From the NCBI GenBank assembly GCA_905207905.1, contig CAJLNC010000070.1:1-13082 (forward strand): a DNA stretch of 13,082 bases, read 5' to 3'. A model generated the notes under the pieces. That model was not told where the DNA came from. It searched no databases and worked only from the letters and a program-made list of their open reading frames with translations. Origin of the DNA: an uncultured Lachnospiraceae bacterium. GTDB taxonomy: Bacteria; Bacillota_A; Clostridia; Lachnospirales; Lachnospiraceae. Every line of letters begins with the position of its first letter. Positions within the stretch are counted from its first letter, which is position 1. Made by a program: the position numbers and the translations under genes. Positions 11,322-13,082 of this stretch are shown here, one piece after another.

Positions 11322-11441
11322 AAAAAGCGGATATGCAGACCGGAAAATTTCTGCCTGCAGTCTCCTTTTCTTTGTCCAGGCATAGGAGAATAGGCGGATA
11401 CTGGAAGGCCTCAGGAAGAAATACATAAGGAAGGTGAGCGA

Positions 11442-13082
11442 TTGGAAAACTATACCAAGTATAAGTTGAAAAGCAGCGAAGAACTGGCAGCATTGCTGGC
11501 AGATAAGGACAATCTGTTCTTGGTTGCCTGTAACAAATGCTTCAAGGAATTTGATACCGTTGACGAGCCAGATTGTGATGAGCTTGCGAAACTGGCGGCT
11601 GAACAGGGTAAAACAGTGATCGGCAGTGCAAAGGTTGATTTTTTGTGCAATAAAATTCAGACAGAAAGAAAACTGCAGGGCATGATTCCGGAGAATGCGG
11701 AGCATGTGCTGGTAGTATCCTGCGGACTGGGAATCCAGACCATGGCGGATCTGACGGACAAGCCTGTGTATGCAGCCAGCAATTCTCTGAATTACAGGGG
11801 ACATCACGGGATGGCTCTGACTGCCAAAAGCTGTGATGCCTGCGCCCAGTGTTACTTAAATATCACTGGAGGTATCTGCCCCATCGTGGACTGTTCCAAG
11901 AGCCTGGTGAACGGACAGTGCGGCGGCGCCAAAGACGGCAAGTGCGAAGTGGACGGCAGCAAAGACTGTGCCTGGGAGAAGATCTACCGTAGATTGGAAA
12001 AACAGGGACGGTTGGAAGAATTTTTGAAACAGCCGGTGCAGGTGCGTGATTACTCCAAGACAAATGTGAAAGTGATCAGCGACTATGTGAAATCCATTCG
12101 GGAAAACCGTCTGGACGGGTACTACGGCGGTGTGCATCCCTCTGAGAGGAAGGAATACACGGAACATCTGCCTCTGGTGAGATTCCCAGAACCGGAAGAA
12201 GTGGTGATTCCTCTGTCCATGCATGCAGGCGCTCCGGCAAATCCTGTGGTACAGGTGGGCGATACGGTAAAGGTGGGCCAGAAAATCGGCGAATCGGCAG
12301 GCTTTATCAGCAGCAATATCCATTCCAGTGTCAGCGGAACGGTGATCGCGATTGAGGAGCATGCACACGCTACTAGAGGTACCTGCCTGTCAGTTGTGAT
12401 AAAATCGGATGGAAAGAATACATTGGATGAAACAGTGCAGCCTAAGGGTGATTTGGACAGCCTGACTCCTGATGAGATTGTGGAGATCGTGAAAGAAGCA
12501 GGCATCGTTGGCATGGGCGGCGCAGGTTTCCCCACTTCTGTAAAACTTAAACCGCCAAAGCCTATTGATACGATTTTGTTAAACGGTTGTGAATGCGAAC
12601 CCCTGCTGACAGCGGATCATCGGGTACTCTTAGAATTTGCGGATGACGTGGTATACGGCCTGAAGGCTGTGATGAAAACGGTGAACGCAGAGCGGGGCGT
12701 AATCGTCATTGAGGATAACAAGCCGGATGCCATTGAACTGATGCAGGAAAAAGTTGCAAATATCGGTAACATGGAAGTATTCGTAGCAAGAACCAAATAC
12801 CCACAGGGTGCTGAGAAAACTCTGATCAAACGTGTCATGGGCAGACAGGTTCCAAGCGGCGGACTCCCGGCAGATGTTGGCGTTGTGGTAGATAATATCA
12901 GTACTGTGAAAGCAATTTCCGATGCGATCCAGAAGGGTATGCCGCTGATCGAGCGTGTTGCAACCGTAACAGGCGAGAAGATCAAGAATCCTGGCAACTT
13001 TATCATCAAGATCGGTACCAGCGTAAAAGAGCTGATCGATTACTGCGGCGGATTTACAGATGACGATGTTCTGGTTAAGATG
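11442..13082 (+). CDS. MetV-RnfC fusion: methylene-THF reductase small subunit joined to an NADH-binding RnfC-like subunit (3' end outside window)
   Basis: The visible 547 codons remain open at the right edge. Residues about 1-195 are a MetV/MTHFR C-terminal domain: Cys-rich, with CNKC at 30-33, HH at 121-122, CDACAQC at 131-137, NITGGICPIVDCSKSLVNG, then CGGAKDGKCEVD and KDCAW at 174-178. From about 229 it becomes RnfC: GGVHP, the barrel-sandwich PLSMHAGAPANPVVQVGD, IHSSVSGTV, the flavin/NADH-fold glycine loop GMGGAGFPTSVKL at 357-369, and NGCECEP at 381-387. The ferredoxin-type clusters expected at the RnfC C-terminus lie beyond the window. The start is TTG 11442, with AAGGAAGGTGAG just upstream; the frame has a stop at 11391 and no ATG between. 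In acetogens MetV partners MetF, and in Acetobacterium woodii RnfC2 as well. I infer a role delivering NADH electrons to a MetF encoded downstream. Confidence 0.88.
   Translation, partial: MENYTKYKLKSSEELAALLADKDNLFLVACNKCFKEFDTVDEPDCDELAKLAAEQGKTVIGSAKVDFLCNKIQTERKLQGMIPENAEHVLVVSCGLGIQTMADLTDKPVYAASNSLNYRGHHGMALTAKSCDACAQCYLNITGGICPIVDCSKSLVNGQCGGAKDGKCEVDGSKDCAWEKIYRRLEKQGRLEEFLKQPVQVRDYSKTNVKVISDYVKSIRENRLDGYYGGVHPSERKEYTEHLPLVRFPEPEEVVIPLSMHAGAPANPVVQVGDTVKVGQKIGESAGFISSNIHSSVSGTVIAIEEHAHATRGTCLSVVIKSDGKNTLDETVQPKGDLDSLTPDEIVEIVKEAGIVGMGGAGFPTSVKLKPPKPIDTILLNGCECEPLLTADHRVLLEFADDVVYGLKAVMKTVNAERGVIVIEDNKPDAIELMQEKVANIGNMEVFVARTKYPQGAEKTLIKRVMGRQVPSGGLPADVGVVVDNISTVKAISDAIQKGMPLIERVATVTGEKIKNPGNFIIKIGTSVKELIDYCGGFTDDDVLVKM

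Follow-up and report, generated by a model that had tools for sequence, protein, structure and literature searches.

The window, the whole 13,082-nucleotide stretch of contig CAJLNC010000070.1 analyzed here, ends in an open reading frame that combines a MetV-like domain and an RnfC-type protein in one polypeptide. This raises the question of whether the frame encodes part of a new, two-gene methylene-tetrahydrofolate (methylene-THF) reductase or a subunit of a known enzyme. We have little doubt that it is rnfC2, encoding the NADH-oxidizing subunit of the type III (RnfC2-MetV-MetF) methylene-THF reductase in the Wood-Ljungdahl pathway of a Lachnospiraceae acetogen. A fusion of MetV-like and RnfC domains has been on record for RnfC2 since 2012 (PMC3315566, in excerpt).

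Domain composition of the open reading frame

The ORF listing with translation places the frame at 11442..13082 on the forward strand, with 547 codons from a TTG start and no stop up to the end of the window. It is the 5' part of rnfC2, open at its 3' end, as judged from the frame itself and from Pfam, NCBIfam and protein searches. A Shine-Dalgarno-like AAGGAAGG at 11427..11434 (+), recognized by eye only, precedes the TTG start, which follows 7 bases further on. The MetV-like N-terminal domain comprises residues 1–204 (11442..12053, +), as delimited by Pfam and by cysteine columns shared with the separate MetV of relatives; the PF12225 match itself covers residues 110–204 (11769–12053, E 5.6e-30). 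After a linker of residues 205–227 (12054..12122), taken as the gap between the Pfam matches, the RnfC part continues on the same strand with the RnfC_N barrel-sandwich hybrid (PF13375, residues 228–325, 12123..12416, E 3e-34), the FMN-binding Complex1_51K or Nuo51 domain (PF01512, residues 350–493, 12489..12920, E 1.3e-50) and an SLBB domain (PF10531, residues 506–542, 12957..13067, E 2.3e-11). All four Pfam matches exceed the cut-off, and NCBIfam TIGR01945 (rnfC) matches with 366 bits, above its cut-off of 246.

The initial annotation, which had seen MetV and RnfC in a single open frame, was right on this point: no stop interrupts the transition from PF12225 to RnfC_N, and all the MetV and RnfC motifs it listed are found in the translation. 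Its linker of about 30 residues shortens to 23 between the two Pfam matches. A MetV-like domain N-terminal to RnfC in one polypeptide, by which RnfC2 is defined in the cited portions of PMC3315566, PMC8515935 and PMC8760232, is thus what the window encodes. The Complex1_51K domain, which binds FMN for NADH oxidation, is present, with its portion after 12723 lying in a stretch of probably other origin (see below). The end of the window cuts rnfC2; the missing ∼106 residues, with two CxxCxxCxxxC motifs, are visible only in relatives (P0002 and others).

Eight window ORFs were tested with Pfam. Upstream of rnfC2, the matched genes encode ribosomal protein L19, a ribosome-binding-type GTPase, ribose-phosphate pyrophosphokinase, glycerol-3-phosphate (G3P) acyltransferase and G3P dehydrogenase, the last directly preceding rnfC2; they look like housekeeping genes. 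Two signal-peptidase-like ORFs (462–1157 and 2187–2738, +) were noticed by eye on either side of the YlqF/RbgA-like GTPase gene.

Conservation of the fusion and its operon

A collection scan returned 264 encoding stretches, the best 80 of which were retained as loci. All 80 contain a fused ORF of 653–704 residues, and PF12225, RnfC_N and Complex1_51K occur together in all of the best 120 of 7996 scored protein matches. Since the fusion is present in every retained locus and every listed protein match, the gene is common and conserved, and the fusion is neither a chance event nor an accident of domain boundaries. The locus nearest to the window among these 80 is L001 (88%, best segment).

Among the same best 80 of 264 loci, a separate metV ORF begins 1 base past the rnfC2 stop in 76 and metF lies downstream in 73; the four loci without metV have 12–528 bases of locus left, and the seven without metF 12–1161. 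In the copies checked, those of Blautia massiliensis (L020), metV (206 residues) matches PF12225 alone and metF matches PF02219. The metV ORF and metF following rnfC2 thus indicate a three-gene operon, rnfC2-metV-metF, in the relatives. Several of the listed protein matches carry the source name “electron transport complex subunit RsxC”, which may mislead annotation of the Rnf complex. One database protein (P0001, 823 residues) continues by eye from RnfC2 straight into the separate MetV; the join has cost RnfC2 its C-terminus and MetV its N-terminus, perhaps through a deletion or faulty assembly.

Comparison with known methylene-THF reductases

The best-described counterpart is RnfC2 of Acetobacterium woodii (Awo_c09290; type III / 3S), which according to excerpts of PMC3315566 (2012), PMC8515935 and PMC8760232 has a MetV-like N-terminal extension of 220 residues. 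Like the window gene, it thus joins this extension to RnfC and serves as the NADH input subunit, and these published descriptions reveal no architectural difference between the two. Its gene adjoins metV and metF, and the relatives of the window gene have this same set of three. The purified A. woodii trimer, as given in part of PMC8760232, has a 1:1:1 composition and contains 23.5 Fe, a content that fits six [4Fe-4S] clusters; with NADH it reduces methylene-THF. An rnfC2-metVF cluster is reported in the same excerpt for Blautia schinkii and B. wexlerae; L014 and L017, one strain of each, match the window gene with 82% identity (best segment), have the same gene and order, and differ, as far as seen, by sequence divergence alone. 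In an excerpt of PMC11338639, rnfC2 is listed as K25008. Type II enzymes (Clostridium ljungdahlii, Eubacterium callanderi) share the MetV and MetF core, but consist of MetVF alone, and the cited parts of PMC8760232 and PMC8515935 report no in vitro use of NADH by them. No assay of an RnfC2-containing Lachnospiraceae enzyme was found in the portions of the literature covered; the sole Blautia enzyme mentioned there is that of B. producta, a MetF-only type I reductase.

The initial annotation had contrasted the window gene with A. woodii, where it took RnfC2 to be a separate subunit that receives electrons from NADH. Since RnfC2 is a MetV-RnfC fusion there already (PMC3315566, PMC8515935 and PMC8760232, in the parts cited), nothing in the window is newly tied together covalently. 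The overall interpretation therefore holds for an NADH-oxidizing, RnfC-like subunit of a MetVF-type reductase, and fails for the contrast with A. woodii and for the two-gene enzyme. NADH-linked methylene-THF reduction, which it had also raised, is the activity to be expected, with metF downstream in 73 of the 80 relatives.

The MetV-like domain and separate MetV

The consensus of the fused domain agrees with that of separate MetV at 93 of 204 aligned positions. Separate MetV (76 sequences) has 13 cysteine columns conserved at 100%, 12 of which are equally invariant among the 80 sequences of the fused domain. Missing from the latter are the thirteenth, in column 127, and the cysteine in column 211 (96% in MetV), and column 56 (95%) holds a cysteine peculiar to the fused domain. 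The cysteine columns retained make it very likely that clusters are still bound by the fused copy. A phmmer search of the PDB with the L020 MetV had no matches at E ≤ 0.001; the same database searched with the L020 MetF yielded 15 sequences, named methylene-THF reductases or reductase-like protein.

Relation to the Rnf complex

Residues 224–543 of the window ORF are homologous to RnfC of the Rnf complex, with the solved 9eri_C matched at E 6.9e-99. The solved proteins (9eri_C, 7zc6_C, 8ahx_C) are 435–496 residues long and are matched from near residue 1, which means that they have no MetV-like front domain. An RnfC of the Rnf complex has no N-terminal MetV and lies beside rnfD; the window ORF has a MetV domain, and the genes downstream of it in relatives are metV and metF.

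We examined 22 rnfC2 genomes, 13 from the family sample described below and 9 reached via the loci. All 22 contain an RnfD/NqrB-type gene (PF03116). In 21 of them, an RnfC_N ORF of 436–491 residues with no MetV-sized extension lies beside the PF03116 gene on the same contig; in the remaining one (G091), the RnfC_N ORF is a 242-residue fragment on a different contig. With a separate RnfC_N ORF in 22 of 22 genomes, RnfC2 is no replacement for a missing RnfC. Such a substitution had been hinted at by four of 13 genomes (G001, G059, G091, G153) having a single match at E ≤ 1e-100, but Pfam models found a separate RnfC in these as well (in G091, the 242-residue fragment).

A 744-residue ORF in the family sample (G106, open frame 746; L084:2032–4263, +) resembled a further fusion involving RnfC, but the domain in frame before RnfC is ABC_trans_CmpB (PF06541) and not MetV. 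It is an unusual RnfC fusion in its own right, and an rnfD-like ORF comes after it.

Origin of the 3' end

The last 360 bases of the window (12723..13082, +) are probably of other, Oliverpabstia/Blautia-like, origin according to DNA and protein identity. Over residues 1–430 the ORF shares 99.8% identity with the database protein P0002, and over residues 431–546 only 78%. At the DNA level, the tail (12741–13082) shares 96.5% identity with Oliverpabstia intestinalis (L019) and 93.9% with Blautia massiliensis (L020), and the head 71.7% and 72.0%, respectively. The change is abrupt, with a single mismatch to L019 in 12723–12930. From 12931 to the end there are 11 mismatches to L019, and from 12918 to the end 3 to L020, so that the last 165 bases are nearer to B. 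massiliensis than to O. intestinalis.

Because the tail switches affinity twice at the end of the sequence, within a conserved operon, it is probably a chimeric contig end; our guess is that the window ends where the contig does. Alternatively, it may be a recombination tract or an unsampled allele of the Blautia group. The domain fusion is unaffected, since its boundary lies ∼600 bases upstream of the join. Given the probable foreign origin of these 360 bases, the window says little about the organism's own residues after ∼427.

Alternative explanations

The probable chimeric join at ∼12722 could lend some color to the view that the fusion itself arose in assembly. However, ∼600 bases separate the join from the MetV-RnfC boundary (12054–12122) further upstream, and the same fusion in 80 of 80 retained relatives already refutes this explanation, to which we assign next to no probability. 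It is also extremely unlikely that the window encodes part of a new two-gene enzyme, as the initial annotation had it, in which the fused protein takes the place of MetV and pairs with MetF alone. With 12 of the 13 invariant MetV cysteine columns, the fused domain might in principle do the job of MetV, but in 76 of 80 loci a separate metV intervenes between rnfC2 and metF, the other four end within 528 bases, so that metV is present in every relative with sufficient sequence, and A. woodii has the same three subunits in a 1:1:1 ratio (PMC8760232, in excerpt).

Docking of RnfC2 on the membrane Rnf complex instead of RnfC, which would link Rnf directly to MetF, was suggested for A. woodii in 2012 (PMC3315566, in excerpt). 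The close relationship of the RnfC part to 9eri_C, the RnfC of a solved Rnf complex, and the PF03116 gene in 22 of 22 rnfC2 genomes are in agreement with this proposal; yet each of these genomes also has a further RnfC_N ORF lacking a MetV-sized extension, so that RnfC2 is not needed as the sole RnfC, and we consider the docking very improbable. A broader scenario would have the fused second MetV copy allow the reductase to swap partners: through RnfC2, MetVF would be connected at times to soluble NADH oxidation and at others, transiently, to the membrane-bound Rnf complex, so that methylene-THF reduction in gut Lachnospiraceae could be membrane-coupled. As a separate point, rnfC2 segments would be undergoing exchange between Lachnospiraceae genera by recombination if the join at 12723 is real. 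Taken jointly, these proposals seem to us very unlikely to hold. The reading we prefer remains that of RnfC2 in a soluble, three-subunit enzyme.

Co-occurrence with CODH/ACS

In the nearest locus, L001, rnfC2-metV-metF is followed by ORFs that by eye resemble CooC and a CODH subunit, and the same contig carries acsB (PF03598, E 3.9e-67) ∼7 kb downstream of rnfC2. Ten rnfC2 loci were traced to their genomes, and all ten of these contain acsB.

For a wider view, 200 genomes were drawn from the family of the nearest relative (G001), and at most six rnfC2 candidates per genome were scored among the matches listed, a procedure that a split or divergent rnfC2 could escape. Among these matches, the fused protein is matched over its full length in 13 of the 200 genomes (1031–1400 bits); the next best match has 414 bits and covers the RnfC part only. 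PF03598 matches in 36 of the 200 genomes, 23 times strongly (E < 1e-60) and 13 times weakly, in ORFs of 238–274 residues that are probably not acsB. Among the matches listed, all 13 genomes with full-length rnfC2 have a strong acsB match, and none of the 177 genomes without a strong acsB match has full-length rnfC2. Ten genomes have a strong acsB match but no full-length rnfC2, which shows that acsB does not depend on rnfC2 and that the link is one-way. Nine of these ten have no PF12225 match (E ≤ 0.001), which would be in keeping with a type I reductase made of MetF alone, such as that reported for B. producta; the tenth has a separate ORF of MetV size.

Proposed electron path

Domain order, conserved cysteines, the metV and metF genes downstream in relatives and the co-occurrence with acsB support the assignment to rnfC2; the electron path is modeled on the purified A. 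woodii enzyme. By this analogy, NADH would reduce the FMN of the RnfC part. The electrons would then travel through both [4Fe-4S] clusters at the C-terminal end of that part and through those of the MetV-like domain at the N-terminus before reaching the separate MetV. MetV would in turn reduce the flavin of MetF, where methylene-THF would be converted to methyl-THF. Most likely, the MetV-like domain bears clusters and connects to the MetVF core. The reduction step would be soluble and exergonic; our analysis yielded no evidence for its membrane coupling, and nothing in the window sequence bears on the energetic coupling that had been raised for it.

The window gene supports NADH-linked methylene-THF reduction in gut acetogens and leaves the known picture unchanged, with RnfC2, the MetV-RnfC fusion, present in many gut Lachnospiraceae that have CODH/ACS.
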